DNA from: Phanerodontia chrysosporium
Taxonomy: Eukaryota > Basidiomycota > Agaricomycetes > Polyporales > Phanerochaetaceae
Direction: 5' to 3'
DNA: 64,000 nt
Assembly (NCBI GenBank): GCA_001910725.1
Contig: MJGA01000037.1
Span: 124,001 to 188,000 of the forward strand
The position numbers and the translations under genes are program-made. This document shows, piece after piece, positions 28,429-64,000 of the stretch; the stretch's first letter is position 1; each line of letters begins with the position of its first letter. The notes under the pieces are model-generated. The model had not been told where the DNA came from. It searched no databases and saw only the letters and a list, made by a program, of their open reading frames with translations.

Positions 28429-30016
28429 ATGACGTGGACGTCTTCGAGCAGCAGCGAGGGGGTAACGGGCACGATCTCTCGTGAGTGACATTTCCAGCTG
28501 TACATCCTGTGCTGAACATTCAACCTCTCAAGCCGTCAATAGAGCTATACGCGCAACTTCATGAAGAAGTCCGGTATCTTATCACACTCGCGCCAAACGA
28601 CTCGAGAGGTTCGAAGGTGAAGCCACCTCCGCTGTCCTTCGGCGAGACCGCGCAGAGCACGGCCAAACCAGTCTGGCACACGCCGTAATGCTCGATGTGA
28701 GCAATGCCGATCAAGTCGATCCCAGTGCCGATCTGACGAGCTCCGCAGTACCCTCGAGCCACATCCTCCCTCAAGTTCAAGGTTCACCGCCACGCCGCTG
28801 GAGAGAAGGAGAAGCTTGCGGGGGAGGCGCGAGTTTTATTGCATGAGCTGGCGTTAGGTGCGTGTTTTGCGGCTATGTATCCGCCAAGCGACTCACGAGT
28901 GGCCCAGAGCGCAGCTCGGACATAAGGCTCAGCTCACCCGCCGGTCACCAGGACGTCGGCGTGCTCACCCTATATCTGCGCCCCCATGTTCCTCAAGAGC
29001 ATGGCGTTGTCGACCTCTCGCCAAACCGCCAAATACAAGGCACGTCTGCGCTGGTCTCCTCGCTCCTCACCATAGCGCAGGACCTGCGATCGCTGCAGAA
29101 GACGCTCAGCGCCCGATATACAGCCATAGTACGTGCTTCAGGCTCTCTACAACGCGCCTCACAGCCTCGCAACATCAGTCTAGGGTATTTCCACCGCATA
29201 TACCCTGTCTGTTCTGCAGTACATTGCCCGGGACCACGCTGCCAGACCTGATGAAGCCCCTGCCATGCCTACGAACAGCCCCATCCGGGACCTCGCCCTG
29301 CAGGTCGAGCTCCAACTGCACCACTTTACGACCCGTTGCTTACCCGACGCGGTGCGCCAGCGCAAGCACGCCGCCTCGCCGCTCGCATCCGCGCTCCTGC
29401 CCGCCCTCGCACAGTCCCTCGCCCTGATCTTCGGCTTCGCGGACTGCTACACCGGTGCGTGCCCTTCGCCCTTTGCTTTCCCCGCGCGCCGTGCGATGCT
29501 GAAGGGACACCTACAGAGTCGGGCTACACCGCGATCGACACGCGCTCCCGCACGTGCGGCGCTGCGTTCCGCACGCTGCTCTTCCGCCTGCTCGCGCTCG
29601 GCGCGCACATGCGCGGCGTGCACACTGGGGGCGCGTCCGCCACGCGCGCACTCGGCGATGTCGCCCCGCGCGAGTCCCTGCGCGACCTTGCGTGGGCGTA
29701 TGCGCATCGCTTTGCGATAGCGGAGGAGGATAGTGCGCCCTGGGTGGACTATCTGGATTGTTTCCGTGGACGGCTGGCGGGGAGGATGGGCAAGGTGTTG
29801 AAGAAGGTGCGTTTTTGTGTTTAGCGAGGACGCGATGGTGCTTATGCGCGCGATAGGTGGCTGAGGAAGCTGAAGATGGGGGCGTCAAGCGCGCGGCTCT
29901 ACATCTCATGAAGCGGTTCGAGGTTGAGATGAGGATGGGCGTGCCGTCGGCGATGCAGTGGTCACAGACAAATGATGGTGTGCAGCAGAGCAGCGAGAGT
30001 GACACACTGACTTGAG
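28429..30016 (+). pseudogene. C2-like / helical protein gene, broken copy (inverted paralog of 35881-37462)
   Basis: Matches the intact minus-strand paralog along its whole length. The exon 1 start is at 28429 (MTWTSSSSSEGV), exon 2 from 28543 reads LYAQLHEEVRYLITLAPND, and later blocks are GVLTLYLRPHVPQEH, DLALQVELQLHHFTTR, GYTAIDTRSRTCGAAFRTLL and WVDYLDCFRGRLAGRMGK, with a C-terminal exon ending at 30016. Two lesions are visible. In exon 2 the Glu codon after HTP is TAA (28685-28687), and in exon 3 about four bases are missing, which shifts the frame before FKVHRHAAGEKEKL. The downstream exons keep clean frames and splice sites, so decay is recent. An alternative donor at 28685 avoids the stop but does not restore the frame. 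Confidence 0.75.
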
Positions 30017-30242
30017 TTCAGGTCTGGAAAAAGAGCGAATCTTGCACTCCAATACTGATTTATACCACAATCGTTATATTTCAAGGACAAGACAAGTGGT
30101 CTTTCATGAACAGTATAATGTGTCTCAGTACTGGGACCTATGTCTGTCCACGGCAGATGGTCCTCGCCCTACCCCCTGTTCAATCATCAGAGCTCCGAAA
30201 GACACTCCAGAAGGTCCCGAGCAGTCCGCTGCGCGACATGAG

Positions 30243-32515
30243 TTACCTGTCTGGCACCTGCCCGCCCTCTGCCCGCACGTGCTTCTCCCAAGGATTGACG
30301 TGCAGTGGGGGGAGCAGCTCGGCCGCCTTCGCGTCCGATGCAGTCCGGTCTGCCGATAAAGTGTTGTTGCCAGTAGATCGCGAGTCTCTTGCTCTTACTG
30401 GGTCTTTACGTTCTGGTGTGGCATTGGTCGCTGGTGCTTGCTTCGTCGGCGGTTCACCCTTTGTCCCAGTTCCCAATGCGGTGACTCTGTCCTCTGCTAA
30501 CGCGGAATGCATTGCTTCTGCTGCTACCTTCGAGAACATAGAGGACCAGCCTGGTCTCGGTTGAGGCGGTGTGCCGTGCTCGGGCCTGCGCGACGTCTCC
30601 ACCATGATATGCGTGCCCTGCCACGAGCTCCTCGGCTTATCCAACGATGCAGGCGCGCCTGCGGGTTGTTCAGCGGTCTTCCGTATCTCCATAGACCGCT
30701 TTTTCCGCTTCGCCTGGTCTGACCCGTGGTGCGCAGGCACAGACGCGGAGATTGCAGATGCTTCGCCACCGACCCTCGTCGCATTTTCGCTGCTCGCCTC
30801 ACGCGCTAGACCATCAGGGGGTGCTGGAGTTGGCACAGGGGCACAGGTGGTTGATGTTCTCTCGGAAGGTGTGGAAGCGGGCACGGTAACAGGTAGCGGG
30901 ACGGTCGCGTTGGTGTCGGACGGGGCGCTTGCCGTGGCGCGCGAAGGGTCCACAGCGGGTTGGACAAATGGTTGGACAGACGCAGCGCGAACAGGCGCTG
31001 CGCTGGCAGCAGCCGGCTGTGCGTCCTTCGGCGAGTCCTGCGCGGCGGTGCGCGCAGCGCCCTGAGCAGCGCAAGCAGAGGGTGGGTCCAATTTAGCAGA
31101 GATTCCGCGTTGCGGCGTGGCTGGTGAGGTGGCGTCCCGAGATGCAGACGATGCGGCGACCGGATCGTGAGCAGCTGCTCCTTCCTGCGCAACATCGACT
31201 GCGTCCTTCCGCGGCGGCTCCTCTAAGGTGGGTCCAGGAATGTGCTCAGGGATCGCACTCAAGAGCAGCATCAACGCAGGTGCAGCATGTGGCATTTTGC
31301 CTTGCACGACACGCTCCACTAGGGGGGCGAGCGCGGCCCTCGCCGCGGGCGTCCAGTAATCGCGTAGGAGGAGTGCGGCCTGGCGCTGCAGGATCTCCGG
31401 GTGCCTGGACGCGGGTCAGAGTCGTTGAGGATGGTGAGGTACAGAGAGAAGATGAGAGACGCACCGCGCGGAGAATCGCGAGAATAGCTCCGGGAGGATG
31501 GTTTCCCCGTCGAGCTGGGCAAAGAGGTGCGCTTCAGCGAGTGCCTTCAGCTCGTCGAGCCCCGCCTGGTGCCCGACGTGTCAGTGTGTCTGTGCCCGAA
31601 CCGATCGAGCGCCGCGCACCTCGCACGCAAAGCGGTACATCGACTTGGACGAACACGCCGGTCGATGCTGGTGTGTCTTGCGGTGCTTGGACAGTGCCTC
31701 CTTGCGCATCTCGGGGCCTCGCGAGCGCAGGGGAAGGAAGTAGACCTGTCCGGTGTATAGGTAGAATATTGCAGCTTCCAGGCTGGAGAGGATAAGATCA
31801 GCCAGGGAAGTATTATTTTCGGTGTCGCTCACGTGTCGGCTGCTACGAAGTCGAGGTGAAGAACTCCTGTACCACGATGTGCACTGCTGGATGGCTCCGT
31901 TGGATTTATGCGTGCTGCATCTAAGTCGTCCGGCTTGCGTGTAGTCGGCGTATCTGCCTAAATATTCTCAGACCGTGAAGGGATGTATATTTGTTTGATT
32001 TGACTTACGGGCAGCTCCTCAAGCGCTTCGAACTCCGCCAGTGTGAAGTCGCTCGGTGTTCCTGGAAAGGATTCCAAGTCGTCTTCGCGGTCCTGGTTCT
32101 TTGCCTCTTGAAGCGGAAGCTCGTCGTCATCCTCGATGTCGCTATCGTCGTCCTCGTCATCTCTAAGACGCGCAGGTCCCCTTACACGGCTTGAATCTCC
32201 TGACAACACTGCACATCCTTAGGCACGGCGTGTCGAGACCAAAACAACGGACTCACGTTGACTAAAGTACGGCGAGACGGCCTTTAAGATATGGCTGTTC
32301 GCGCGAACGGCACGGCACGAGGCAGAGGGACCGCGTCTGGTGGGTGCATGGAACGCTATGTCCGCAAACGAAACACCGGCGAGCGAAGCGGCGAGTGCGT
32401 CCTCGAGCGCGCCACACGCAGGTACCGGCGCGAGGGTGTGTAACGGCGACATTGAGTTGTGGTGGTCAAGCTTGGGGTGTGCTGACGTGTCGCCGTATGG
32501 CGAAGAAAGATGCAT
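30243..32515 (-). CDS. BTB/POZ-domain protein with long low-complexity C-terminal tail
   Basis: Exons (minus) 32257..32515, 32009..32208, 31833..31957, 31620..31782, 31465..31565, 30243..31404; 669 residues. The order follows the family: ALEDALAASLAGVSFADIAF, an acidic stretch (DDEDDDSDIEDDDE), LEAAIFYLYTGQVYFLPL, SSKSMYRFACE, AGLDELKALAEAHLF and HPEILQRQAALLLRDYW. Unlike its relatives it carries a last exon of 1162 bases. That exon encodes a tail of about 390 residues rich in Ala, Pro, Ser and Thr, with a basic cluster (AKRKKRSMEI) that could be a nuclear signal. Intron positions match the plus-strand paralogs, so it is the same family but older. The start at 32515 has a fair context; the frame is open to an ATG at 32593. 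Confidence 0.8.
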
Positions 32516-33601
32516 CGTGGCGGGCTCGTGTGCCTCGTCAATACCGCGCGCCGCACGGAAACAGCGTGTCACTGACAAACAGCACGTGGCCACGTCCGAT
32601 ATCGTTGCAAAATGAAATCAGACTGGGACTGTGGAGAGTTCTTGAGCTCACATGCCATAACACGTGGTAAGTCATATACTGGCACGCCTTCCTCAATGGC
32701 TACAAGTGTGAATGGTAGCGCAGACGAATCCTGTGCTTGCGAGACGCCAACGATATTAGCTACACGCAGAAAGCCATCGAAGCAGGACTTACCAAAAATT
32801 GAGCTCGCGCGCGTAGGAGGCTCATAGGAACCATCGTCTTGTTGTCTGCCCTGGCGCTGGTCGTGGCCATGGGCTTGCTCATTGTACCGTGTCGGTGCCA
32901 TGCGAAACGAGCAGAATGCGTAGCCTGAACCCTCGCAGGCGAATCTACGCACGGGATGGCCCATTCTGCGTCAGGCAACGATCTTGAGGTACTGTCCCTT
33001 TCGCTGTTTATCAGAGCACCTGAAAGGCCGTCATAATGGGGCAGCACACCTCAAATGTCCCGTGCGCCTACTGCCTTCGCGATGGGTCTACCGCGTCGCT
33101 TACTATGTATCCACAACGTCGACCATCTGACGTCTGCGTTCTGGCCACCGTCCCCGTTCTACTGCGTTCCAATGTCGCCCATATTGCACATGTTTCAGTC
33201 CGACGAGGAGCCCTGACGGAAGCCGATATGCACGCTGCATGCGCCGAGAGCGTTCTCTCGACGTTGTTGGGGAAAAGAATTTGGTGACTGAGGTTTACGA
33301 CGTTTGAGCACAGCAAGCGGGGCCTTCCCATTGCTTATGGAGAGGTTAGGTGGAGTTTCTGCAGGATGCACTTACACCGTGCTAGACACCGATGGTCGAG
33401 TCGTGCGTGGCCAGTGGGGACAAGCACAGCATCATGCACAGCTGAACAGCCCTCCGAAAGCGCCGCGCCCTATTATCGATTTGCTCTGCTACGATCCACC
33501 ACCTCCCAAGTACTACAACGCCCACAGCACATTCGACCACACACAACGGACCATTGTCCTTCTCGCGCACGACCGCATCCTACGTCGAACGGATGCCAAC
33601 C
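32516..33601. other. Intergenic with an orphan kinase-upstream block
   Basis: About 1.1 kb between divergent BTB and F-box genes. On the minus strand, 32738-32815 matches part of the conserved upstream region of kinase-like genes 1 and 2, but no kinase exon follows. The right end (from about 33475) is the F-box promoter, shared with 42230-42328. Confidence 0.5.
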
Positions 33602-35061
33602 ATGTCGAGGTCTGTCGGCACAGAGCTTCCCAATGAACTCCTCCAAGCCATCCTAATCCGCCTCGACGACTCGAAGTTCGGATGGCGAGACGAACGCACG
33701 TCCAAGCGAGGCCTCACATCCTGTAGCCTGACATGTCGCCACTGGGCGCGACACGTGCGTCCGCTGCTCTTTACCCATTTGGCACTCCGTAGTCGCGAGG
33801 ACGAGGTTCAGCTCCAGGACTTCCTGGCAACTCCTGACTTCCTCGGGCGCAGTATTGGAGACAGCATGCGCTACCTGACACTCATTTATGATGGAGCGGC
33901 GTCGGGCTTTCCATGGACAGTGCTGCGGCCGACGCAACCCGCGATCCCGTCCCACGTCCGGGTCCGCGTCGAGTGGCGCATGGTGGGGGAGGAGGATCGC
34001 TCTGGGCAAAAGTGGCCGACCTACCTGCTGACCAGGGTACTCCCGAGAACCCCACCGCCCTCGGCACTCCAACATATAGCTCGTCTCACATTCTGCAATC
34101 TTGCCATTCCTATCCGTGGCCTCCTACGCTTCCTCCGATGCATTCGGTTTGAACGACTCGACATGGAGAAGGTCACCTTTGTCGAAGGTGAAGACCTAGC
34201 CCTCCTAGAGGCATTACCTGTGCTCCCGTTACGCGTCAGCAACTTCCTGTCAATTGGATGCTCTATTCATTTCCGTGGGCTCAGCAAAAGTGGACTGTTA
34301 TACTGGACAACTGTCGGAAGACTTGCGCTTTCTGGGCAGGTCCGACTGATGAACGGCACCAGGGTCCCAACATCAATATCCAGCCGCCTCCTGATTTGTA
34401 CAGACACACATGATACCGATCACGCTACATATAACCTGGCGATTATATCCCAAGCACGCTGGTCGAGGTGCAGTAAGTGGCATGTTTCTGCTCAGAGTCA
34501 GGCCTTCATGTAGTCCCAGGCACTCGGTTATCGTACGATTGCCATTATCACATCTCCGACAGCAGGGGCATACTGGCAGCTATTACAGAAGGGACGCGGA
34601 CCAGGGGCCATCCTCGTACTACCGTGGCCGTCACCTTCACCCAGCTCCGCTGCCCTGAGCTGAAGGACGATGCCTGTGGATTTGAAGCCCTCGATCGACT
34701 CTGTCGCACGCTGGGCGACATTGAGACTGCTGATACAGCCAGTATTGCGATTGTGTGCTCCTCTGCAGAGGAAACGCATACTCTTCTGTGCGGAATCTTG
34801 CAGAAACGCGTACTTGCGGATCCAAGGGACAGATACGTACACCTCCAGACTAATTTCTGGGATATGTGGGGTGACGCCGTATGCGACATCCTGGAAGCAG
34901 GGCCGGCAGAGGTGACCTTACACAATCGAACAATGTTGTCGCGGATTACCACGCAGGTCGCGCGGCAGAGGTTTTTCCCCGAGAATGTGCAGATGAGTCT
35001 GCCTGAGCTTCGGGAGCTGTGGGAAGTTGTAGACGAACTCAGGAAGGGCACAGAGGTATAG
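33602..35061 (+). CDS. F-box protein (family copy A)
   Basis: Exons 33602..34472 and 34520..35061; 470 residues. The N-terminal F-box reads LPNELLQAILIRLDDSKF...SLTCRHWARHVRPLLF. The long family region follows with LQDFLATPDFLGRSIGDSMR, YLTLIYDGAASGFPW and TYLLTRVLPRTPPPSALQ. After the 47-base intron (phase 1) come CPELKDDACGFEALDRLC and a C-terminal part ending RKGTEV. The start MSRSVGTELP was chosen because it opens on the F-box; the frame is open to 33554. F-box proteins are receptors of SCF ubiquitin ligases; the family-specific C-terminal region is presumably for substrate and I recognise no LRR or WD repeats in it. The closest relative is the copy at 42329. Confidence 0.85.
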
Positions 35062-35880: not shown

Positions 35881-37462
35881 CTAGCTCGATGCCTCGCTCT
35901 CGCCGCCGTCCTGCACAGAATCCTTCGTATGCGTCCGCTGCACCGCTGGCAACCCATCGTTGCCCATCACACCTTCGAACCGCTTTGTGAGACGTCGGGC
36001 TGCGCGCTTGACACCATCGTCTTCAGCTCCCTCAGCCACCTGTTGCACACATGAGCACCATCTCATCGTCCTCGCCAAATCCAATTACGCACCTTCTCCA
36101 ACGCCCTGCCCATCCTCCCCGCCAGCCGTCCACGGAAACAATCCAGATAGTCCACCCAGGGCGCACTATCCTCCTCCTCTATGGCAAAGCGACGCGCATA
36201 TGCCCACGCAAGGTCGCGCAGGAACTCGCGGGGGACGACATCGCCGAGTGCGAGTGTGGCGGACGCGCCCCCGGTGTGCACGCCGCGCATGTGCGCGCCG
36301 AGCGCGAGCAGGCGGAAGAGCAGCGTGCGGAACGCAGCGCCGCACGTGCGGGAGCGCTCGTCGATCGCGGTGTAGCCCGACTCTGTAGGTGTCCCTTCAG
36401 CATCGCACGGCGCGCGGGGAGAGCAAACGGCAAAAGGCACGCACCGGTGTAGCAGTCCGCGAAGCCGAAGATCAGGGCGAGGGACTGTGCGATGGCGGGC
36501 AGGAGCGCGGATGCGAGCGGCGAGGCGGCTTGCTTGCGCTGGCGCACCGCGTCGGGCAGGAAACGGCTCGTAAAGTGGTGCAGTTGGAGCTCGACTTGCA
36601 GGGCGAGGTCCCAGATGGGGCTGTTCGTAGGCGCGGTAGGGGTTTCATCAGGTCTGGCAGCATGGTCCCGGGAAATGTACTGCAGAACAGACAGGGTGTA
36701 TGCGCTGGAAATACCCTGAATTGATGTTGTGAGGCTGTGAGGCGCGTCGACTACAGCCTGCGGCACGTACTATGGCTGTATATCGGTCGCTGAGCGTCTT
36801 CTGCAGCGATTGCAGGTCCTGTGCTATGGTGACAAGCGAGGAGACCAGCGCGGACGCGCCCTGGATCTGGCGGTATGGCGAGAGGTCAACAGCGTCGTGC
36901 TGTTGGGGAACATGGGGGCGCAAATACAGGGTGAGCACGCCGACGTCCTGGTGCTCGGCGGGTGAGCTGAGCCTTATGTCCGAGCCGGGCTCTGAGCCAC
37001 TCGTGAGTTGCTTGGCGGGATACACAGCCGCAAAACACGCACCTGACGCCAGTTCATGCAATAAAACTCGTGCCTCTCCCGCAAGCTTCTCCTTCTCTCC
37101 AGCGGCGTGGCGGTAAACCTTGAACTTGAGGGAGTATGTGCCTGCATCGAGTGTGCTGCGGAACTCGTCAGATCGGCACTGGGATTGACTTAATCGGCAT
37201 TGCTCACATCGAGCGTTCTGGAGTGTGCCAGACTGGTTTGGCCGTGCTCTGCGCGGTCTCGCCGAAGGTTAGTGGGGGCGGCTTCAGCTTCGAGTCTCGG
37301 GGGTCGTTGGGCGCGAGCGTAATCGAATACCGGGCTTCTTCATGGAGACGTGCATACAGCTCTGCCTGTATTGTTACAGGCTGAAGACATGAAGACACAA
37401 ATGCACTCACGAGATACTCTGGCTGCTACTCCCTCGCTGCTGCCCGTGGACGTCCAAGTCAT
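35881..37462 (-). CDS. C2-like plus helical-domain protein, stand-alone (intact copy)
   Basis: Seven exons (minus): 37411..37462, 37208..37361, 37043..37155, 36771..36991, 36445..36715, 36093..36382, 35881..36039; 419 residues. It starts MTWTSTGSSEGVAARVSQLY. Residues about 20-120 look like a C2-type beta sandwich (ARYSITLAPND, then TYSLKFKVYRHAAGEKEKL, ARVLLHELAS), followed by GVLTLYLRPHVPQQHDAV. The rest is helical (DLALQVELQLHHFTSRFLPD, FRTLLFRLLALGAHM). Intron positions at ELAS|E, YTAI| and CYT|E match those in the N-terminal half of the kinase at 51343-53950. No enzyme motif is present. It is likely a binding or scaffold protein; the C2 assignment comes from strand pattern only. An inverted, broken copy lies at 28429. 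Confidence 0.8.
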
Positions 37463-40068: not shown

Positions 40069-41424
40069 CTAGACAGCCATGAGCCGCATACGAGCCTGCA
40101 ACCATCCCACAAGCCTCCAGAGCACCCGTGGAGCGAAGATGAGACAGATCTTGTACATCGTGACGATGTCGAGCACAAGGGCTGTGGGCAGATCCTCATC
40201 GCGTCTCCGGAGCCGTAAGAAACGTCGGAACACCGATATACGCTTACGGACCTCCCGCCAATGGTGCAGCGCTTTTTCAGCAGTCGGTCGCGCCTTGGGG
40301 TCTGGGTGGACCATCGCCGATATGAGCGGGCGGAGGAATTCGGTGCGGGAGTATGGCTAACCACGGCTGTCAGCATAGGGATGCACGAGAGCGGGTTACC
40401 ACGCTCACCTTGTCTATTGCCTTGCGCAGCGCATTACCAAGGATGAACACATCTGTCATGAAGGGATCATACGGCACATCGAGTGAAAGCTCGGGGGCTT
40501 CTCGATCGGCTCCAGCTGTGCCGGTGACACGTCTCGGAGTACCTGGCGGGATGCGAACCGACATTCCAAAGTCGACGATGTAGTATCTGATCCTCTCTGG
40601 GGAGGCAATGCGCCATATTGGGATCGAACGGGCAGAGCCGTCGCGTTTGGTTCCAAGGCGGGAAGGGTGCCAGCTGTCCGGATAAAGAGGCTCTCCGTCC
40701 ATGAGAATGTTAGACATGGCGATATCGCTACGATAGAATCAGTATATTGCACAGGCTTCAAAGCAGAGACAGGCTGACCGGTGAACGACGGAATGTTCGT
40801 GTATGAACGCTAGGCCCTGCGAAAAGGTCGGTTAGAGATGTGTAGACATGACGTGAAGGAGCAGCTACCTCTAGAACCTGATCTGCAAACTGTACGACAT
40901 CGTCCACATGCAGGAAAGGGGGATCCGTCGATGCTCGAAGGAGCGGCATGACTATGTAAGACATGTTGTTTTCTTCGTCGTCAAACGAGTCAAGGAGAGG
41001 CACGCAGTGGTTTCGAGGATCTGCTCTGACTTCGGGGCTAGAAAAATAACGAGCAATAGCCAGCTCCTCACAGCCCATCGGGACCGTCTTCAGACAGACG
41101 TATCGGCCATCCGCTGTGCGTATAGCGTCGATGAGATACGGTTCCTACCCATGCACGATCAGTGCCAGCGTCACCTCACAACGAAGTAGTACTCACGTTG
41201 CATGGCCAGTAGTCTTCAAACAGGAGAGGCAGTCTGGATGGATGCGCCTTCCATGACGGCACCCAGTCCGGCGAGTACCGCGGACGAAGCCTGTAGCCAT
41301 GGGACAGGAGGAACTGGTAGCGGCTGCGCCACCTAAGCTCATGCGGCAGCACCATCTCGCCGACCTCACCGAGGTCCGCGTAGTTCTCTTTGAGGAGCCT
41401 CCATGTGTCCTCATCATCGGACAT
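40069..41424 (-). CDS. Protein-kinase-like protein 2
   Basis: Exons (minus) 41197..41424, 40869..41144, 40779..40816, 40409..40727, 40069..40356; 382 residues. Exon sizes 228/276/38/319 are identical to kinase-like gene 1, and only the last exon is longer by 12 bases. Motifs: YVCLKTV (candidate Lys), HRDIAMSNIL, DFGMSVRIPPG, REAPELSLDVPYDPF and a C-terminal hydrophobic stretch (VLDIVTMYKICLIFAP). No clear glycine loop. The start MSDDEDTWRLL aligns with the other copies. Its upstream region carries the conserved block also seen before gene 1. It is in inverted orientation relative to gene 1 and appears intact. Confidence 0.85.
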
Positions 41425-42328
41425 GGTGGTAATGGAAGGGGGAGGAAAGGGGGAGGAGGAGCAGGTGACGGTTTTTGTTGTGATAAATCTGCGCCGGGGC
41501 CGTTAGGCATCACGCATCACGCCGCGGTGCGTCTACATAGCGATTGTAAGCATCTCATCGGGCATCCGTGTGGTATGATCTCACCGTACCGGGCCTAAGT
41601 GCCGCATTATACGGTCTGCTTCGGCTACCAACAATATCAGCCACAGATAGAGATCCAGCGAAGCAGAACGTACCCAAAGATCTAGCTCGCGCACGGTAGT
41701 ACCGCGATAGCATCGCCTTCCAGGCCAGCCTATCCCTCATCGTGCCCGGGAGCCTACTTAGGGTACCATGACAGGACCATGAGCACAAGGCGATAGTCTG
41801 ACATCACGTAGGTGAATCCGGGCGCGAGATAGCACGCTGGGTCATACGACAATGGTGAGGTGTCAACACATCTGAAGGGAGACGGCAAAAGGGCCAGCGC
41901 AGCTTACATGCTTCCTGGGCTCACTGCGTCTGTGCCGCTGCTTCCTCAGCGTTCCAAATCGAACGACTGTGTTTCGGCTCGCACCCCGTCCTGACATGCA
42001 GCGATGTCGGTCAGACTACTCAAGCTAGGTTGCCGCGAGGACTCCGGACGAAAGCACGTACATGAGAGTGTCCCCTCAAGATCCGCGAGAATCTGGTGGT
42101 GTATGAGGGTTGTCGCAGCATTAATGTTGATAAACGTGGGAGGCCGGAGAGCGGTCAGAGGCAGAGATGGTTGAAGGGTGCAAAGCACCGACACGGCGTC
42201 AGGTCAATCAGCAAAGCGCCGTGTGATCGATAACTTTGCTCTGCTACCGTTACCATCGCCTCGCAAACACTGCAACACCCACAGCACAAGGATTTCGAAG
42301 ACTGAACAGACAGATTCCCTGAGCGGCC
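41425..42328. other. Divergent promoter region, kinase-like gene 2 and F-box copy B
   Basis: About 900 bases. Besides the conserved kinase upstream blocks, the right end (about 42230-42328) resembles 33475-33601 before F-box copy A. No gene seen. Confidence 0.5.
41496..41554 (-). promoter_or_regulatory. Conserved upstream block before kinase-like gene 2
   Basis: On the minus strand it contains GATGCTTAC, GTAGACGCACCGCGG and TGATGCGTGATGCCTAA in the same order and spacing as upstream of kinase-like gene 1, about 70-130 bases before the start codon. A further conserved stretch lies at about 41610-41720. Confidence 0.45.
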
Positions 42329-43806
42329 ATGTCATGGCACGCACGAATGCCAATGTCCGCCAGCACAGCGATCCCCGACGAGCTCCTCCAAGCCATCCTA
42401 GTTCTCCTCGATGACTCCTTAATCGGATGGGAATTCGGGATCCTGCCCAAGCATGGCCTTACATCCTGTAGCCTGACATGTCGCTACTGGGCGCGACACG
42501 TGCGTCCGATGCTCTTTACCCATCTGACGCTCCGTAGTCGCGAGGACGAGGTTCAGCTCCAGGACTTCCTGGCAACTCCTGACTTCCTCGGGCGCAGTAT
42601 TGGAGACAGCATGCGCTACCTGACACTCATTTATGACGGAGCGGCGTCGGGCATTCCATGGACGCTACTGCGGCCGACGCGATCCGCGATCCCGTCCCAC
42701 GTCCAGATATACGTCCAGTGGCGCATGATGGGGGAGAAGGGTCGCTCTGGGCAAAAGTGGCCGACCTACCTGCTGACCAGGGTGCTTCCGAGGACACCAC
42801 CGCCCTCGGCAGCTCAGTGCATAACTCAACTTTCACTTTGTAATCTTGCCCTTTCCATCCGGGACTTCCTACACTTCATCAGATTCCTTCGATTCGAAGC
42901 ACTCTACATGGAGAATGTCACCTTCATTGAAGGCGAAGATCCAGCCTTGTTGCATGCCTTACCTGCACTACCGTTAGGAAGCAGCAGGTCCTCACCCCCA
43001 AAAGGATGTTCCATCCACCTTCAAGGGTGCAGCAGAAGAGCACTTCTGTTCTGGACGATTATTGGTGGTTTCATACCCTCTGGGCAACGCCTGCAGATGA
43101 ATGACCGCAGGGTCGTGGCGTCAATATACCACCAGCTCTCCCTTTGCGCAGACGTGCATCATACCGAAAGTGCTACATGTGACCTAGTCATTATAGCTAC
43201 TGAAAGTCATAGGGGATCGCGTGAGTGGCATATCTATTTGCAGATTAGTCAAGCCTTCACGCAATTCTAGAGATATCCCGGTCTTGGCGATATCAGCTTT
43301 GGGGCCGTGGCCTATGGGACAGACAACTTGCAGAAATTGAAACAGAGGACATGGGTACCGGCACAGTACACATCTGCTCCACGAAGACTCTCTGTCCTGA
43401 CCTGGGGGATAGTGGATTCACAGCCCTCGATCAACTCTGTCTCTCGCTGAGCAACACTTACCATTGTGCTGTTGTATACAACTCACCAACGGCAGGGTTT
43501 ACCCTTCTAGGCGACATTCTTGAGGGACGCGTGCTAGCAGACACCAGCTTCAGCCGCATATTTCTCCAGACCAGTTTTTCGACTTTCTCTGGTCACACTG
43601 TGCACGACATCAAGGCAGCACCAGCAGAGGTGGTCTTGCACAATGGAGCGATGCTGCCATTAACAACCATGCAGCGTACACGGTGGCTAAAGTGCGACAA
43701 CAACATGGAGAGGGAGTCATATCTTGCAGATCTGCGAAGGGATGTAACAGATCCGGAAAGGGAGCACGGGCAGAACAACATGCAAGACAAGTATTCCCAT
43801 ACATAA
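42329..43806 (+). CDS. F-box protein (family copy B)
   Basis: Exons 42329..43220 and 43271..43806; 475 residues. The F-box reads IPDELLQAILVLLDDSLI...SLTCRYWARHVRPMLF. The region LQDFLATPDFLGRSIGDSMR through YLTLIYDGAASGIPW is almost identical to copy A at 33602, while the C-terminal halves have diverged (CPDLGDSGFTALDQLC here). The phase-1 intron is at the same place. An ORF reading without the splice stops early at 43270. The strong contrast between the near-identical N-terminal two thirds and the diverged C-terminus suggests selection on, or conversion of, one part. It faces gene Y on the minus strand, about 300 bases away. Confidence 0.85.
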
Positions 43807-47600: not shown

Positions 47601-48478
47601 ATAAGGGACTCGACCAGTTAGGTTAGTCTGCGATCATATCATTGTCCTACAAACGTGGATACTGTTGCGGCTCCGCGGTTTGAATGAGCATCGCACCAAC
47701 GTCTTGTGTTCTGAATGCTATCAATTGGATGTAGATGGAGCAGGTCGACGGCGTTGCGCAGCGTTCATCGGAAGCAGTGAGGCAGCGTGCGAAGAGGCGG
47801 AATGGAACCTGCCTCGAGAATCAACACCACTTGCGAGCACTAGGCGCATAACGGAGAGTGACATGACCTCATAAAACAACTGCGACTTTACGAGTGCCTA
47901 CGCGCTATGTAGTCGTTGTACTTTCCGGCGGAGATTCAGTGTGTAACCCGTTTCGATCGTCAACTCTGAATGATGATTGAGTGGCCTTATCTTGCATGAC
48001 GAGGGCACCTCGCGACGGAGCTCAATTTCCTTCTATTTCGACGTGTTTTGTGGCGTAGCCAGCACAGCCATGATAATGACAAGGGGCAGGATCGCTTGTA
48101 TCGTCCTCGTGATACTCCGCGATCACGAAAGGTCTTCTCGACAGCTGCCGTTGTGCGGACATTCATGGTGTTGTCGCACCCTACATAGTACACAACACTG
48201 TACGTGGATTTCCAATCTTCCACAGTAGTCCTAGACATATCTTGTTGTCAGCGTGCTATCCGCCGTGTCCCGGGCTTGAGACAACTCCTATCAAGAACAG
48301 AACGGAGCACATTTCTCGCAAGCCAACACCCTGTTCTGTTGATTCAAATTTACTATGATTCGATACAATGTGAATACATATTGGCGATACGCTTCGATTA
48401 CAACCGCAACCTGAAATTTCGTGAGGCAGCAGCCGTGCTAGCGAAGAAGAAAGATAGCGGATGTACTACATGGGTTAT
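44660..48478. other. Long gene-poor region
   Basis: About 3.8 kb. The left end may hold 5' exons of gene Y. The rest has only short open frames; those at 46244-46498 (plus) and 46957-47316 (plus) are the longest with some protein-like composition, but no domain or splice partner was found. No repeat array, tRNA or transposon protein seen. It could be decayed sequence. Confidence 0.45.
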
Positions 48479-49818
48479 CTATCCGAAAACAAGACGCAAC
48501 CATTCTTTCGACCACCTGAGGAAGCGCCGCGCAACGATGAAGCTGATCTTGTACATCATGACTATATCAAGCACAAGCGCGGTAAGGAATGTCTCATCAC
48601 GGCCCCGAAGGCGTGCAAACCGTTGGAGCACTGTGACCCGTTTGCGAATCTCATGCCAATGGCGTAGCGCACCCTCAGCTGTCGGTCGCGCCTCGGGGTC
48701 AGGATGGACCATGGCGGAGATCAGTGGGCGTAGAAATTCGACGCGGTAGTACGGCTGCCCAGGGGCCTTCAGATTTAAAGTGTCATAGGAACCTGAGCGA
48801 CACACTCACCCTGTGGATTTCTTTGCGAAGGGCGTTCCCGAGAATAAACACATCCGTCATAAAGGGGTCATAGGGAACGTCCAGAGAGAGCTCGGGGGCT
48901 TCTCTGTCTGCACCTCGGTTGCCAACGACGAGTCTGGGAGTGCCCGGCGGGATGCGCACAGACATTCCAAAGTCAGCAATATAATATCTGATCTTCTCAG
49001 GCGAGGCCACCCGCAATATAGGGATCGAGGGGGCAGTGCAGTCGCGCTTGGTATTAGTACGGACAGGGTGCCAACCGTCCGGGTAGAGAGGCCTGCCGTC
49101 TATGAAGATGTTGGACATTGCTATATCGCTAAAACAACGTCAGACAGGATAACGCAAGGTAGAGAGAATAGCTAACCGATGAGCTACGAAATGTTCGTGC
49201 ATGAAAGCCAAGCCCTGGATAATGTACGGTCGGAGACCCATATCGTCGAGGTAGAGGGCACTTACCTCGAGGACCTGGTCGGCAAACTGTATGACATCGT
49301 CCACCAGTGCAAAGGGGGGATCCGCTGCGTCTCGAAGGAGTGGCATCACCATGTACGAGATATCGTTCTCCTCGTCGTCGAAGGAGTCAAGGAGGGGTAC
49401 GCAGTGATTGCGAGGATCAGCTCGAAGTTCAGGAAGGGAGAAGTATCGTGCAATGGCGACCTCCTCGCTACCTCGTGGAACTATCTTCAGACAGACGTAT
49501 TGACCATCATCACGAGTGGCGTCCATGACCAGCGCTTCCTGTTCGCCCTCAATCAGTAATAGCGCCTGACCACATCGTACAGCAACTCACCCGCCATGCC
49601 CAGTAGTCCTCAAACCATAGGGGGATTCTATTCGGATGCGCTTTCCACGATGGCTCCCAGTCCGGATGGTAGCGCGGACGCAGCCTGTAGCCGCGGGACG
49701 CGAGGAACTGATAACGGCTTCGCCACTTTCGCTCGTGCGTGAGTAGCTTCTCGCCAATCTCGCCAAGTTCGGCGTAGTTCTCTCTGAGTAGCCTGTATGT
49801 CTCCTCGTCGTTGTGCAT
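48479..49818 (-). CDS. Protein-kinase-like protein 3
   Basis: Exons (minus) 49591..49818, 49266..49538, 49177..49214, 48810..49128, 48479..48754; 377 residues. It matches kinase-like gene 1 closely in the leader (ENYAELGEIGEKLLTHERKW) and later in YVCLKIV, HRDIAMSNIF, DFGMSVRIPPG and REAPELSLDVPYDPF. It has one codon fewer in exon 2 (DATRDDGQ); otherwise exon sizes are the same. The exon-2 acceptor appears to have slid to a later AG compared with the paralogs. C-terminal hydrophobic stretch VLDIVMMYKISFIV. Intact. The conserved upstream block of genes 1 and 2 is not found here. Confidence 0.85.
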
Positions 49819-50249
49819 GACAGGAAAGTGGGTGGGGGGTAGAGAAAGAGTTGATGGCGATTCGAACAAGGACCCATCTGCTTATGTAATTCCTGTAGGT
49901 GCACGTGGATCTCCACCAAAGCGCGCACACCTTCAAACCTCCACTTCATCGCCGTGGACTCGGAACTCGTGGTACTTCCCTGTCGCAACGTTGTTCTCGT
50001 TTTAGCGATCGATTCTACCCATGCGCTCAAACAAATGTTACCGTCTACGTGCGTGCAATCTAGCAGGTGCTGTGTAGCGGCTTCGTCTATATAATCTGGT
50101 GCAAATCGCTCAGTGGATTGGTCAGTACCCACGTTCTCTCACAAAACCGAGATACCTGTCCTCGCAGTTCTAACTTCTCCGCTACTAAGTTGCTGGTCAA
50201 CTACTATCATTATCCATACCCATATCATACTATTCGTAAAGTCAGAAAC
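49819..50249. other. Divergent promoter region
   Basis: About 430 bases between the starts of kinase-like gene 3 and the next plus-strand gene. No element recognised. Confidence 0.4.
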
Positions 50250-51342: not shown

Positions 51343-53950
51343 CTACAAAGCTACCTTGACCATCTCGTCATACAGCCGCGAAGCATCCCCCCTCCTCCCA
51401 GGGACCATGTCCGAGCATCGCTGTACCAAGTCCCACAAACGTTCATCTTTGAGGAGCGCGGGTCGGCTAGGACGTTTGCCCTCGAGCAGTGCTCGCTCTA
51501 GGTCCTGATTAGTAATATCGCCCCATGGTGCGTGACCGGAGTACAACTGATAACACTTTAGTTTGGCCGCGTGCAAAGCATGGGTGGACGTACCTCGAAC
51601 GCTACCATTGCCCACGAATACACATCCCCGGAATATGTCGGGCGCATTGACACAGGGCTTCGGCACCAGAGCTCCGGGGCTTGCCATTGAGGGTTGCCTT
51701 GCCGCGTCGACCAAAGCTGCTTGCTCTTAGACTCCACATAGACAGCTAGTCCAAAGTCTGTCAGCAGAGCGTGCTCGTTGTCGTCTACCAAGACGTTGTC
51801 CTGCAAAGGGCCGTGACCGTGAGTGGATGATCCATTGTAAGCCGCACATGGGCGTACCCCTCGTAAATCGCCGTGACACATATATTCTGTGTGGAGAAAC
51901 CGGAGGCCTTCCGCAATCTGCTTCAGCTACCACCGATGTCAGAGTTCGGCATGATTCTGTCATATGTACACTCACCCATACGTTGAGCTGGCGCACGAAG
52001 GCGCCATCGTCCTGTAATTTAGCCCTAGTCTTGACCGCAAACTTTCCCAGGTCGCCATTGTGGGCCCATGGCGAGACGAGCGCAAGACGGTAGTCGGGCG
52101 ATACGTACGTGATGCCGAGCATGGGCCATATTCGCGGATGACTCATGCTCCAGCTTGCGACTATCTCCAAGTACAGTTTCTGTCCCCGCTCATTAGCATG
52201 CCTTCGGCGGTTCGCAAACCAGGCCAGCGCACCTTGAGCGTCTCAGGTGTCCATTGCCCGCGTACGGTTTTGACCGCGACCTTGACGGCCTCCAGCTTGG
52301 CCGGGCGGACGTCGGCATAGCCACCCGCGCTCTGCTCTGCCATGCTTGCGCGCCCTTCGTACTGCAGGCGCTGCGCCGCGATGAGGACGCCCGACGGGAG
52401 CATATGGACCTGCTGCATGAGCCACGTCATGAGCGCGCGTGCGGCCGTCCGACGACGACCGTCGTGTTCATCACAGGGCGTGTCAACTATCTGCAGCACT
52501 GAGGTCAGCAGAGCATGGGCGGAGCCAACGTTGGTACGCACGCGCTTGTATTCGTCGAGGAGGTCAAGGGCAACGTGTCCACGGAGGCCGCCCATGATGT
52601 CAACAAAAGGCCCGACATAGGATCCGTTCCCAGGGCCGAGCCAATAGTCCACCGAGCGCCGCGCAAGGCAGCCTGCAAACTCCTGCCTCGACCCCTGCAC
52701 AGCGAGCTCGTCGAGTGCGCCGGGCGCTGCAGCATGCTCAAGGCGAACGCGGCACAGGACGAGTTCGAATTGGACCCGCATGATCTCGTCGAAGCATGAC
52801 TTGTCCTCCATGCGGATATGGTCGTACGTTGCAGCTGTAAGCAGTGTCAGCGACCAAGGTCTGAAAGACTTGCGCGGATGCCCGTACCTGTGTACCACGC
52901 CGCAAATGTATACGCAGCGACAAGCCCGCGCGCAGCCCATTGGAGAAGGGTCTCCGACCGCCTAGCATATTCCTCGGCTTCGACGGCGTTCTGCACTTCC
53001 AGAAGGTATATAACTGTACGTGCAACCATATACAGGAGATCTTCCACGGCGTAGTGTTCGCCCACAGTATTGCGATGTATATCTCGTTGGATCTCGCCGA
53101 GCGCAATGGCCAAGTGGTTCATCATCGCGCACGCGAACGGCGGTATCGCAGACTACGACACGATGGTAAGCTCACAACAAGAATTGCGTCTGCAGGCGTT
53201 GACTCACCAGGGCGACCGTGCGGTTGACGCAACGTTCATGTTTCGCGAGCCTATCCACCATCGTTCGCACATCCACAAGCACCTCAAATCCCCGACTGAT
53301 GGCGGGGCCCAAATCGATAGCGGGGTGCTCTTGAAGCGGCCACGGAGAGAGTTTGATGTACAGAGTCCCACGAGCAGGTAACGGATTGCGATACAACACG
53401 ATGGGTGCTTCTAGAGAGACAGCCACTTCGCGACCTGACAGTTTCAAGGCGAAGAGGCGAATGAGACGGAGTCCTGAAGGCAGCGATGCAATGGAAACGT
53501 GCCCAATACAAGCTCGGAGAGCTTGACCCGTGCAGTCGCCCACTCCTGACTGCTCGTGCGTGTGTGTTTGTATATCTTGAGCTGCACTAAGGATATTCCA
53601 AGCTCTAAAGAGCTAGAGATCATGTCAGCAGGTCCGCCGTTCGTCAACATGAGTCGTACATACATTTCCGCTGGAGGGGCATCAGGAAATACCCAAGCTG
53701 GCTCTTGCGATGCTTTGGACGTAGTTGGAAACGCGAGGCACGGTTTACTGCCCGTCCCCAGGAATATGCGCGCCGAGTATATGTTCTTCTCTTCTAGAAC
53801 AGCTCGTAAAGCTGAGCGTAGAGAGCTAGACGTAAGCGAAACGCTACGAGGCCAGAGTTGGTGTCGGCCGTACCGCAAATCCGAAGCGGAACCCTGCCAT
53901 TTGCCGGCGCCGTCATATTCAGAGGGGATTTTGACACTTGTGGGTAACAT
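51343..53950 (-). CDS. Tyrosine-kinase-like protein kinase with N-terminal C2-helical module
   Basis: Eight exons (minus): 53503..53950, 53208..53434, 52888..53152, 52233..52834, 51976..52179, 51858..51926, 51594..51800, 51343..51546; about 741 residues. The N-terminal half repeats the stand-alone module: ISLVQLKIYKHTRT, ARVKLSELVLG, GTLYIKLSPWPLQEHPAI, then helices. The kinase domain starts near residue 478: SAGGYADV (loop), VAVKTV (Lys), CHGDLRGDNVLV (catalytic loop with HGD instead of HRD), DFGLAVY and APELW. The Asp and Asn of the loop are kept, so activity is plausible. The first intron (53435-53502) has a GC donor (GCACGT) and CTGTCAG acceptor. Its place and phase match an intron of the paralogs. 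The start at 53950 is tentative; the frame is open to 54061. Confidence 0.8.
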
Positions 53951-59390: not shown

Positions 59391-59795
59391 CGTGTCTAGC
59401 AGGGCTCTGGCAAAGTGGCAAGCCTGGCGGGAGCGCGTTGTGTTGGGAGATTACATAATTAGATGGCCATCCCACGTGGACCCACAGCGTGCATCAACAG
59501 GCGTCTATATCCATCCCGCGGTGTCAATGTGCCTCGCAACAATTGTCGTGAGCCCATCTCATCCGCACAGTCCTTGTACTCTGCAAAGCGTGGAATCACA
59601 GCATGCGCATACCCACATTTTTTTGCTGCTCATCGTTCACTTTTGGGAGGTACACCTCGCCAGCCTGGGGCGCTCGGGGTATGGCTAACACCCTACATAA
59701 GCCCCTGACATGGCGCAACGACAGGCTGTTCCTGTGACTCGTCCCTTCCTTACTCACAAAGTGCTGGCACTCTTATCTTATTTTTCAACATCACG
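59391..59795. other. Divergent promoter region
   Basis: About 400 bases between kinase-like gene 5 and the leader exon of the next gene. No specific element identified. Confidence 0.4.
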
Positions 59796-59848
59796 GTATG
59801 TACTCTACCCCCATGCATTGCTTCGGCTTGATGCTCACTCGCTCGCAG
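59796..59848 (+). other. 5'-leader intron two bases before the start codon
   Basis: ACG|GTATGT ... CTCGCAG|ACATG. The paralog at 61844 has the same arrangement, with ACG before the donor and AC then ATG after the acceptor, so it is an ancestral leader intron. An upstream ATG at 59710 in the leader may be a short upstream frame. Confidence 0.55.
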
Positions 59849-59850
59849 AC

Positions 59851-60648
59851 ATGTCTATGGTCAACCAATGCACCGAGAGTGAGGCCCTCCTTACGCTGAT
59901 GACGAATACAACGGCTGTGGCCGTTGGCACCACATTGCTCGGGATAGTCAGGTCCGACTTGTCGGGCAAGGCCCTCGGGATCTTGTACCACAGCGTGATC
60001 CCCGATGTCGAAAAGCTGCTTGAGGCGGTTGATGCCCTGATCAAGGAGATAGCGGAGAAGATTAAGCACGGCATTGATGCTCTGGTGTCGATTACGGGCC
60101 ACAGCGACGCCAATGTGCAGGGAAAGCGTTACAACTACTGCAAAGTGACACTGAAGATCGACGACCCTTTTGCGCTGGATAAGGAGAGACAGGCGTACGT
60201 CGTTTTGCTATGCTTCGATCGTATCTCACCGGTTTCCTCCAGAGTCCTTGCGGAGCTATGGAATCACCGTAAGGAATGGCGGGTTGTCAAGTCGAAGTTC
60301 ATGTCGTACTCCAAGATACAAGAAGCTCGCGGAATTGCCGAGGACGTCAAAGCGCTTCACAAGCATTGCATAGAGCTCGATAATAAGGCCACCGTGAGTC
60401 TACTTATTGGCTCAGGCCTGGTTCTTTCTTGGTGACGATAAGCTACCAGTCCTCCTCGACCCGCCTTTTGACACATAACAGCATGCCGACCGCGTCGTCC
60501 ACCACAACCCACACTCTGCTCCATGTGGAACCAGGAAAACCGGTGCAGAGAGTGGCAGTTGGTACGATTGTGTGTTCAGCATTCGCGTACTTGCGCTAAC
60601 CATTCTTCAGAACGCAAGGCCCACGACGAACCTATGGTTTGGGTGTAA
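59851..60648 (+). CDS. Small helical protein, paralog 1, unknown function
   Basis: Exons 59851..60194, 60243..60393, 60482..60542, 60611..60648; 197 residues. The N-terminal part has a hydrophobic segment (TTAVAVGTTLLGIV) and an amphipathic coil (LLEAVDALIKEIAEKIKHGI). It is followed by YNYCKVTLKIDDPFALD and, after the first intron, LAELWNHRKEWRVVKSK, then KALHKHCIELDNKAT. Introns 1 and 2 match the paralog at 61844 in place and phase. The last two exons are chosen by alignment with the paralog's 3' region and are less certain. No known domain was recognised. It may be membrane-associated. Confidence 0.7.
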
Positions 60649-61787
60649 AGTCAGCAGCGAGCTGGGGCTGGATCCCTGTCTCATTTGTTTGTCCGATCCA
60701 ACTCAATACACTCGTTGACCTAGTACTATATCGTGGAGTTCGGAGTATTGTTACCAGTCATGAGCGTGAACGACGCTCGCATTGCATACAGCATGGGCTT
60801 TGACATCGAACCATGCTGCGAGCGTATTATGTAAGCGTCTATAATACCAAACAAGGCACAACCACTACCATGTACGGTCACCGGGAAGCGACAAGCGCCC
60901 GCTGTCCGACGACAAATCGTGCGCCGAAGTCGACGGCGCGTCATCCTCTCTCAGTCTGTCCTTGTCGTCAGCGTCGCGGCGTCGCCAACGCACCAACACA
61001 TGTCTTCACCAGTCGCTGGCCTCACTGTACATCAATACATCACATGCATTGACCGCTGTCCGAGTCCTTGTACTTTCCTCGCGGCGTGTAGGGTGGTGCA
61101 GAGTGCGGCATACGCTCTGAAACCCCGAGGTAGCGAGACATCGGAGGTGAGTACAATGCTCGTTGGGGTACTTTGATGTGCGTCGTGCTGCTGCCTTGAA
61201 GCTCGCGACACGGACTTGAGTTCCATACCTGGCAAAGCTGCAACCCATGCCCTCGTCACCAAGTCTGCACACGGGGAGTCGGCATTGACCTGGCAGTCCT
61301 AGCACAATACTTGGTGATCAACGCCTACTCAAAGATTTGGGTGTTCTCAGTCACCACGCTGCGATGCCCCGGGCGTGCCGGACCCCAGCTCAGAAGACTG
61401 GAGGATCTTCGCGTGCCACTGGAAGCGTTCAAAGTCGCAACCTCCGGCCTGCTCGACAGACACGGGGTCGTGTTCCTGTAGGCACCACTCTTGTTCTCCC
61501 CAAGGCGCACCACAATGTACGTTGCCTGGCGTCCAGCTATTTTGTCGCGACGCCCCCCGCAACAACCGCCTTGATCCTGCTTATTCGTGGAACCCCTTGT
61601 ACTGTACAAAGCATACCATCAGGGAGTACAGAGTCTCGTGCTCCTTGTTAGACTCACGCATGGAGCGTCCAGCGCAGTGGAAGCCGACTATATAGGCCCT
61701 GCCCGCAGGTCAACGGTGGACTATCTTCATAACCTGTTTACCTCCAACTACCCCCCAGCACTCACATCTTCCTACCTATCAGCTACG
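60649..61787. other. Intergenic containing repeat copy 2
   Basis: About 1.1 kb between the two small-protein paralogs. The middle is the dispersed repeat; the right end is the leader of the next gene. No other gene recognised. Confidence 0.45.
60818..61440 (+). repeat. Dispersed diverged repeat, copy 2
   Basis: Direct-orientation partner of 56885-57660, aligned by several blocks in the same order. It may be the remnant of a duplicated gene or non-coding segment; no terminal signature of a transposon was seen. Confidence 0.5.
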
Positions 61788-61841
61788 GTACGTCCCATAC
61801 GCGCTGCGGACTGCCCTAGCATGATACTGACTCGCGCATAG
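61788..61841 (+). other. 5'-leader intron two bases before the start codon
   Basis: ACG|GTACGT ... CGCATAG|ACATG, positioned exactly as in the paralog at 59851. Confidence 0.55.
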
Positions 61842-61843
61842 AC

Positions 61844-62444
61844 ATGGCATCCATCACCGAGGTCGGCAATGGTCTGGCGCAGCCTATTCTCCTGGCAGGC
61901 CAGGTCCTCGGATCGCTGTACGAGACCGTTGTCCCGAACGTGGAGGCCAGCCTCAAGGAGGTCGAGACCCAACTCCGGGATGTCTCAGCCAAGCTCAAGG
62001 ACTCGATTGCCGCCTTGAATGCCATCGTTGTCGATAGTGAACCCGACGCGAAGAAGAAGCGCACCGCCTACTGCAACGTGGTGCTGAAAGTCCAGGATCC
62101 TCACACTTTGGAGAACCAGTACACGGCGTATGTCAGACTCTGACAGGCAGTGTATGTGTGTCTGACCATGTCTCTAGTTTGTTGGCAGATTTTTGTGTGC
62201 GTCGGCAGCAGTGGAAGGACATGAAGTCGGAGTCTGCGTACGGGAGGATAGGAGTGACTCGTGCACTCGCCGAGAACCTCAAGCAGCTCCAGGACCGGTG
62301 CATAGAGCTAATGTATGAGGCCACCGTAAGTTGGGCGTAGCTTACTCCTGAGATATCGATGCTAACCGTTGACATCAGGAAACTTCCTCTCGTATTCTGA
62401 AGAAGGGAGCGCCGCAGCCGAACGTAACGCACACTCCCCTCTAA
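61844..62444 (+). CDS. Small helical protein, paralog 2, unknown function
   Basis: Exons 61844..62127, 62178..62325, 62379..62444; 165 residues. It starts MASITEVGNGLAQPILLAGQ, then a coil (ASLKEVETQLRDVSAKLKDS), AYCNVVLKVQDPHTLE and, after intron 1, FCVRRQQWKDMKSE with LKQLQDRCIELMYEAT, ending NVTHTPL. The blocks YCNVVLKVQDP and RCIELMYEAT align with YCKVTLKIDDP and HCIELDNKAT of paralog 1. The sequence beyond its stop still resembles paralog 1's last exon (to about 62660), so the protein may have been shortened by a new stop. Function unknown. Confidence 0.7.
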
Positions 62445-63470
62445 GCGACACCAAGAGAGCCGGTGAGAGCAGCAATAGTTAGTTAGCTTCATACTTCTAT
62501 ACGCATGTGTTTGAACTGACAACGCCCCAGGCTGTCCGCGCAAAGGCCAAGTCGATCTGCCGGTATAATGCCGCGCTTAGTACACTCAGCAGATACCCGG
62601 AGCTGGATCCTATGTCGCTTGTCTCTGTAGTCCTCAGCCCAATACAATACACTTGTTTGTCATGATACTACGTCCAAGAGTGCTGTCGTCCTGCATGCGA
62701 GCATAAACGACTGTTGGCATGTTTGACTGCTCGCGGGTACCCAGGGTCCGGCACGGACGGGCGCCTGTGCTTTTCTCGCCCGCATCCCGCCTCCACGGCT
62801 CCCAGCGACCACGTACCCTTCCGTCAACAGCGTTTTCTCGCATTACTCGATGCCTGCAATTATTCCCTCCGCAAAGAAACTATCTGGGCTTCCTCAGGCG
62901 ACATGGACGTTGGCTATAAACACTGCGAAAGCGGCACCGCAGAAATTCGCAGACGCACCCGCTCGACCTCGCCGTAGAAACCGGTAGCCTCAGCCGTTAA
63001 CTGGACATGAGCATCAGGACTACAACGCCCACCGCCTAGAGACAGGTACAGCAAGATTCAGACGAATCTTCCGGCTGACATGCCGGGCACGCGACCGGCA
63101 GCAGATAATCAAGGGTCACGCTCATTGCAGACCATTGCCCGGTCTTTGTTTTCTGCGCAGAGGCCCGCTTGTATCACCACCTTGAAACACACGCTCTGCT
63201 TCCGATGAGAACCACCCAGGGTAGTCCTTGTCTGCCATCCGGTCTCGGGAACTGCCCAGGTGCAAAGAACACAGCCGCCTAGGTATTGTCAGGTCCTTCG
63301 CCGTCTCTACATGGTCGACATGCAACCACCCCTCGTGCTGATCTTGTTTCTCGCGGCTGGTGCGTGTTTCTTGAGAATCTATCCTCGCTCTGTCGCCGAT
63401 ATAACCCGCCTAGGCATGCTTTCCTGCCATCCAAAAATCCAGCTACGGCACCCGAAAGCGTCGATCCGAT
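62445..63470. other. Intergenic, nothing recognised beyond remnant 3' exon
   Basis: About 1 kb. The first 220 bases retain a remnant of the paralog's last exon (AVRAKAKSICRYNAALSTLS, ending at a TGA about 62660). The rest shows no supported feature. Confidence 0.4.
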
Positions 63471-64000
63471 ATGGCCTTGGAGTCGCTACTAGAGGAAGAC
63501 AAAGTAGGTCCTCTGGAGATCACTTTCACCCGTGCGTCCGATCTCCTGCCTGATCCCATGCTTCCCTCACCACCCGCCCGCCCGCAGACCTCCGCGGCAA
63601 CCTCAGCCAGAAGGGCGTATACACTCTGTACTTCAAGCATAACACAGACCGAAATGCGTTCTGCAAACGGCCGCCGCCGCCAGACCCGACATCGACGCCG
63701 AACTGGATGCCCAGCCCGCCCTCGCCACCGTTCAATCTGTAAGCGCGCCTATCGCCCGACCTCCCGCTGCCCATCGCTGACTGTTCAAGCAGAGTGCTGA
63801 CCGTCGGAACATTTGCCCTGCAGCTGGAGGTATTTGGGGGGCCGAAACCCGCGTTTGGGGCGGTATCCCAGGACTTGGTGGGATGGGTGCAAGTGCCGCT
63901 GTTCGAGCTGTTCTCAGGTGCGCAGTACACCACCTCACTCCAGGAAGGGGCACGTACAGATGAGCCGCGCTGCAGAGATACCACGTCCCTTCAAGCTCGC
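63471..64000 (+). CDS. C2-like module gene, 5' part, cut by window end; apparent frameshift
   Basis: Exons 63471..63531, 63588..63738 and 63792..63917, continuing past the window. It starts MALESLLEEDKVGPLEITFT, then GVYTLYFKHNTDRN and VLTVGTFALQLEVFGG. The introns before VLTVGTF (phase 2) and after ELFS (phase 1) fall exactly where the stand-alone C2-helical gene has them, so this is another family member; a kinase domain may follow outside the window. In exon 3 a run of seven G (63835-63841) puts the downstream family block (DLVGWVQVPLFELFS) in a different frame from the upstream block; six G would join them. Sequencing error and a broken gene are both possible. Confidence 0.65.

Follow-up and report, generated by a model that had tools for sequence, protein, structure and literature searches.

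A C2-like and helical module shared by kinase-bearing and stand-alone proteins in a variable gene cluster of Phanerodontia chrysosporium

The window analysed here is a 64,000-nucleotide stretch of the Phanerodontia chrysosporium genome (39.0 Mb, 145 contigs), namely positions 124001-188000 of a contig that we call C77; a window coordinate is the C77 coordinate minus 124000. It covers part of a structurally variable gene cluster that lies on C77 and a second contig, C33, and holds a family of proteins whose N-terminal ~400 residues form a module, followed by a kinase domain resembling tyrosine kinases and tyrosine kinase-like enzymes (TK/TKL-like). The members within the window, with gene letters given in this analysis, are B, A, K and E (Table 1). 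An earlier, sequence-only reading of the window had proposed that one C2-like plus helical module serves as a stand-alone protein (A), as a kinase N-terminus (K) and as the gene at the window edge (E), and that common introns prove it. Our analysis supports the common module and its descent as traced by the introns; however, the edge gene is a truncated copy of a kinase-bearing gene and not a third form.

Table 1. Module genes of the window and their parts, in window coordinates
Feature	Position	Strand	Description
Gene B	28429-30003	plus	second A-type copy; in-frame TAA at 28686-28688, exon 2
Gene A	35881-37462	minus	stand-alone C2-like + helical protein, 419 residues, 7 exons
Gene A exons	37462-37411, 37361-37208, 37155-37043, 36991-36771, 36715-36445, 36382-36093, 36039-35881	minus	last exon includes the stop
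Gene A intron 3	36992-37042	minus	phase 1, after HELAS; common to the family members modelled
Gene K	51343-53916	minus	module + kinase, 675 residues, 11 exons
K intron 1	53812-53873	minus	phase 1; common to A and E; missed by the sequence-only reading
K intron 2	53613-53663	minus	phase 2 (PPAE/I); common to A and E
K intron 3	53435-53502	minus	phase 1, after ELVL; GC-AG borders
K kinase domain	51382-52331	minus	introns included, edges approximate; from Pfam and motifs
Gene E (copy E77)	63471-64000, continuing past the window	plus	5' part in window
E introns	63532-63587, 63739-63792, 63918-63975	plus	intron 1 is our reading; the aligner took another donor, same phase

The introns of gene A have phases 1, 2, 1, 0, 1 and 0, and a kinase domain was looked for 3' of the gene and not found. 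A relative from Phanerochaete sordida, P0002 (418 residues), is 57% identical to A over 92%. Position 28429, at which the earlier reading began, is the ATG of gene B. The start of K had been placed at 53950 and is here corrected to 53916 (MTAPANGRVPLRIC/A), giving a protein that begins MTAPANG and exposing a further phase-1 intron common to A, K and E. A database protein of 679 residues, P0001 (source 'lgn', contig 3332), is identical at 679/679 residues to what the C33 allele of K encodes after splicing, which supports the splicing of that allele, including the GC-AG intron, and fixes the start of K; the introns of the window copy sit at the same residues as in this allele. A contig of 3.3 kb yields P0001 as one open frame of 679 residues, although the gene has ten introns; the source of P0001 is thus most likely a transcript assembly. 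Residues 416-667 of P0001 match PF07714 (6.5e-33) and PF00069 (8.2e-30), and K carries the catalytic motifs VAVK, HGDLRGDN, DFG and APE. In the last exon of K (window 51346-51546), the last ~65 codons diverge strongly from the C33 allele, the synonymous divergence (dS) being 0.62 there versus 0.06-0.09 upstream; this jump points to a break by conversion or recombination close to the 3' end of the gene.

Gene E exists in several copies. The copy that enters the window, E77, matches E77b at 94.6% and E33 at 91.0%, and the match ends at C77:189043 (window 65043), just 5' of the kinase, while E77b and E33 remain alike through the kinase. E77 is thus a duplicated kinase gene that has been cut short. 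The idea that E represents an ancestral stand-alone gene was rejected, because its sister copies carry the kinase. Downstream of the truncated E, at C77:189200-189900, translations resemble remnants of another kinase-like family (VKYYFIDRGIPV, FLRPPITNMTMRDPEARP).

Genome searches with the single proteins K, A, E, C and D placed all matches at E<=0.05 on C77 and C33; elsewhere, matches had E-values of 0.09 or weaker. The family counts at least 13 copies (the counts are lower bounds): seven on C77 (B, A, K, E77, C, E77b and D) and six on C33 (A33a, A33b, K33, E33, F33 and D33), and an extra kinase-only fragment of K lies at C33:197543-197902. A kinase follows the module in eight of the 13 (K, C, D and E77b on C77; K33, E33, F33 and D33 on C33), whereas the searches detected no kinase domain behind the module of the four A-type copies and of E77. 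Pfam kinase models (PF07714/PF00069) scored above cut-off in all four proteins scanned (P0001, and D, C and F33 as partial models). The catalytic lysine, HGDL...N and DFG are present in all five members inspected, with HGD in place of HRD; APE is in frame in four of them (K, C, F33 and E77b), because D77 has a frame shift at this motif (C77:219.3-219.5 kb).

Judged by profile scores and intron positions, stand-alone A, kinase K and edge gene E are paralogues across ~400 residues and have one C2-like plus helical module in common. The sequence-only reading considered sequence identity alone too low to convince. This was too cautious: a profile hidden Markov model built from A, P0002, A33b and F33 finds D at 5.5e-46, C at 1.8e-43, E at 4.6e-40 and K33 at 5e-18, versus 0.21 for the top of 1,000 shuffled sequences, and pairwise BLASTP aligns A and K33 with an E-value of 5e-9 and 22% identity. 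The motifs and introns to which that reading pointed are present in the sequence, and A, K and E have six introns in common. In an alignment of eight modules (alignment A1), these introns occupy columns 21, 76, 119, 206, 301 and 400 with phases 1, 2, 1, 0, 1 and 0, and the column and phase of every intron are identical in five of the seven rows examined (A, A33b, D, E and K33). One of the six introns of gene C is displaced by one alignment column; in F33, all five modelled introns match, and the first (phase 1) was identified visually in the DNA. The sixth common intron, of phase 0, lies near the module end. The phase-2 intron had been assigned to the stand-alone and edge genes; it is found in both, but it is not restricted to them, as K has it too.

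For two genes with six introns each, ~400 codons and three phases, arithmetic gives ~0.03 coincidences by chance. Some intron borders of C, D and E were hand-picked with the pattern in view; the spliced aligner, left unaided, recovered all six phases in K77, K33 and E (in E with another first donor), five of six in D77 and four of six in C. Intron positions anchor the paralogy even at 22-29% identity to A, and common descent plus loss of the kinase is almost certain.

The two structure models used, both weak, place a C2-like fold at the N-terminus and helices behind it. The agreement of folds expected by the earlier reading was therefore reached for the N-terminus and not for the whole module, whose superposition was ruled out by the poor kinase model (mean predicted local distance difference test score, pLDDT, 44.5). 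In the better model, the rows of structure matches mostly end at residue 139, and the first ~139 residues look C2-like. The C2 family model PF00168 scores 13.5 bits on A, below the gathering cut-off of 22, and reaches E<=1 in three of eight members, with a best E-value of 0.017. Clusters of aspartate are usual in the acidic calcium-binding loops of C2 domains; visual inspection of these loops in alignment A1 showed none.

The module tree reads ((C,K),((D,E),(F33,(P. sordida,(A,A33b))))) and has a star on each of its five inner branches; the placement of K is the least sure because of its long branch. Since the stand-alone clade is nested among kinase-bearing genes (F33, D, C, K and the sister copies of E), one kinase loss explains it, and with E scored as kinase-bearing, the absence of the kinase is one change on the tree. 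On parsimony, which is not proof, the kinase would have been lost rather than gained. The A-type loss predates the truncation of E77, since the P. sordida relative has the A-type length and is 57% identical to A. The picture of a module moving between a free and a kinase form is not supported; a single loss in one branch explains the distribution. A reading with two separate kinase losses, under which a single kinase-less clade had p 1.65e-5 in the approximately unbiased (AU) test, was rejected, because it arose from scoring the truncated E77 as kinase-less, and with E rescored one change is needed.

At the level of the locus, C77 and C33 are 93.2-96.7% identical in the flanks and in several blocks (C77 110.5-120.1, 142.9-152.4, 159.9-169.4 and 211.3-239.5 kb) and 87-92% identical in other blocks. 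About 60 kb between them (C77 152-211 kb) is inverted, duplicated and different in gene content: gene C was found on C77 only and F33 on C33 only. In addition, C77 107.8-142.6 kb (window to 18.6 kb) corresponds to C33 127.5-162.3 kb in inverted orientation, an inversion of ~35 kb that ends near the cluster start. The two contigs are probably two haplotypes; alternatively, their similarity may reflect a segmental duplication. Stops or frame shifts occur in B, A33a, D33, D77 and E33, the last with a single in-frame stop in its module. In D33 (C33:235.8-236.1 kb), a one-base difference in exon 6 shifts the frame within the module, and APE is still readable. Assembly error may lie behind these lesions.

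Several other genes accompany the cluster. Three repeated genes stand among the module genes, at window 26180-27827 (plus), 40096-41771 (minus, the strand being inferred from the alignment) and 48478-50059 (minus), with 71-74% DNA identity to relatives on C33; the translations of the first and third look kinase-like (IDFGMS/ADFGMS...APEL) and lack the C2 module. F-box-like genes at 33446-34513 and 42323-43270 (both plus; PF12937, E 1.3e-6 and 1e-5) adjoin module genes and also have relatives on C33. Further upstream, an aspartyl protease array (2269-3246 and 5450-6370, plus; PF00026, E 4.4e-56 and 3.6e-52) has a similar, inverted array on C33, and the gene at 16488-17453 (plus) encodes a glycosyl transferase family a/b domain (PF00591, 2.7e-56), which we take to be of the anthranilate phosphoribosyltransferase kind. 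A mating-type locus was rejected as an identity for the cluster, as neither STE3 nor an HD1/HD2 pair lies there: STE3 matches were found on contigs C59, C54 and C57 only, and the homeodomain matches that exceed the cut-off lie on C69 and at 682 kb of C33, ~450 kb from the cluster. An NLR cluster was rejected as well, because the NACHT matches are all elsewhere; none of the 20 falls on C77 or C33, and the Pfam scans, through which alone NB-ARC was searched, returned no NACHT.

The cluster encodes a kinase family with a common module, and we propose that its kinase-less branch acts as a scaffold or competitor and not as a receptor; we give this explanation as a whole an even chance. The C2-like part would recruit the protein to a membrane or a partner, and the helical part would mediate assembly or restrain the kinase. 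The stand-alone form would retain these docking surfaces and could thereby scaffold the kinase forms or compete with them, which would tune the signalling response; this particular role for the free form is tentative, somewhat short of an even chance. The free form had been suggested to be receptor-like. However, the hydropathy scan gave no clear receptor feature in A or K: neither has a hydrophobic N-terminus (top 19-residue mean starting in the first 22 residues, -0.03 to 0.67), and A has one marginal internal hydrophobic stretch (1.87, residues 247-265), which falls within a predicted helix of its relative P0002. The free form may nonetheless pair with one of the kinase forms.

A rival account is the ordinary birth and death of an expanded mushroom kinase family, with the kinase-less copies as functionless by-products of truncation. 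The broken copies and the cut of E77 at the point where similarity to its sister copies ends fit this account, and such kinase expansions are known (PMC3937382 and PMC2838846, in part). It is nevertheless unlikely, since P. sordida has a relative that matches the A-type form in length at 57% identity and the frames of A and A33b are open, with a ratio of nonsynonymous to synonymous divergence (dN/dS) of 0.45; the same script, our own, gave 0.28 for K, 0.11 for E77/E33 and 0.10 for E77/E77b. The variability of the locus could also be read as that of a polymorphic self/non-self or biotic-defence locus, at which the module kinases and the kinase-less forms would be haplotype-specific parts of a recognition system that answers non-self contact by growth or death. 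In its favour, the flanks are closely alike, yet ~60 kb differ in order, copy number and genes, different copies are broken on each contig, the ~35 kb inversion lies at one edge of the cluster, and C2 is listed as an N-terminal effector domain of a few basidiomycete NLRs (PMC4986451, in part). But these observations span just two haplotypes of one assembly, the alleles of K and E are under purifying selection rather than diversification, and NACHT matches are absent from both contigs. Tandem gene clusters frequently vary in this way without any recognition role. We therefore consider such a locus quite unlikely.

The helical part could, moreover, be an executioner bundle of the MLKL or HeLo type, in which case the kinase forms would resemble a C2-tagged fusion of MLKL and RIPK3 and the free form would be a membrane-permeabilising effector. 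Helices do follow the C2-like part in both models, and MLKL-like N-termini are reported as common effectors in basidiomycete NLRs (PMC9815663, in part). Against this, no HeLo, MLKL-like or Goodbye family matched at E<=1 in the eight members scanned, with HMMER filters dropping most matches above 0.1; the structure matches of the better model mostly stop before the helices, at the end of the C2-like part; and the helical region, at ~250 residues, exceeds a four-helix bundle in length. This makes the executioner bundle very improbable. A more specific form of the recognition idea, in which haplotypes differ in C2-helical kinases and a derived kinase-less decoy or inhibitor sets which combinations are tolerated, is highly doubtful; if true, it would be an immune-type kinase and decoy system outside the NLR world.

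With the kinase family and its kinase-less scaffold or competitor as the preferred reading, the cluster can be set beside known systems. TK-related kinases are retained and expanded in Agaricomycetes (PMC3937382, in part), and an excess of TKL kinases is described in Laccaria (PMC2838846, in part). The present family resembles these FslK and fungal TKL expansions in its TK/TKL-type kinase domain and catalytic motifs, in its local expansion and in its mushroom-forming lineage, the type being taken from the domain match. It differs in having a ~400-residue C2-like plus helical N-terminus, while an extra domain is reported in 16 of 241 FslK members (PMC3937382, in part). The C2-like N-terminus recalls C2 proteins (PF00168) and C2-bearing kinases such as PKC; here, however, the Pfam score of A is below cut-off, a helical region follows, and the best 60 solved kinases resembling P0001, which include CTR1, B-RAF, TNNI3K and Eph receptors, contain no PKC. 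Among the basidiomycete NLRs, which may carry C2 or MLKL-like effectors, C2 likewise serves as an N-terminal domain in a variable fungal gene family (PMC4986451, in part), whereas the locus described here has no NACHT match and its output domain is a kinase or nothing. A literature search combining C2 domain, tyrosine kinase-like and Basidiomycota found nothing.

The exact functions of the expanded TK/TKL-related kinases of mushrooms are described as still to be determined (PMC3937382, in part). The cluster offers a defined module with a conserved gene structure, a transcript-like full kinase product and a kinase-less derivative that also exists in P. sordida. Such a set provides a concrete way to ask what feeds the TK/TKL-related kinases of mushrooms and whether truncated paralogues regulate them.
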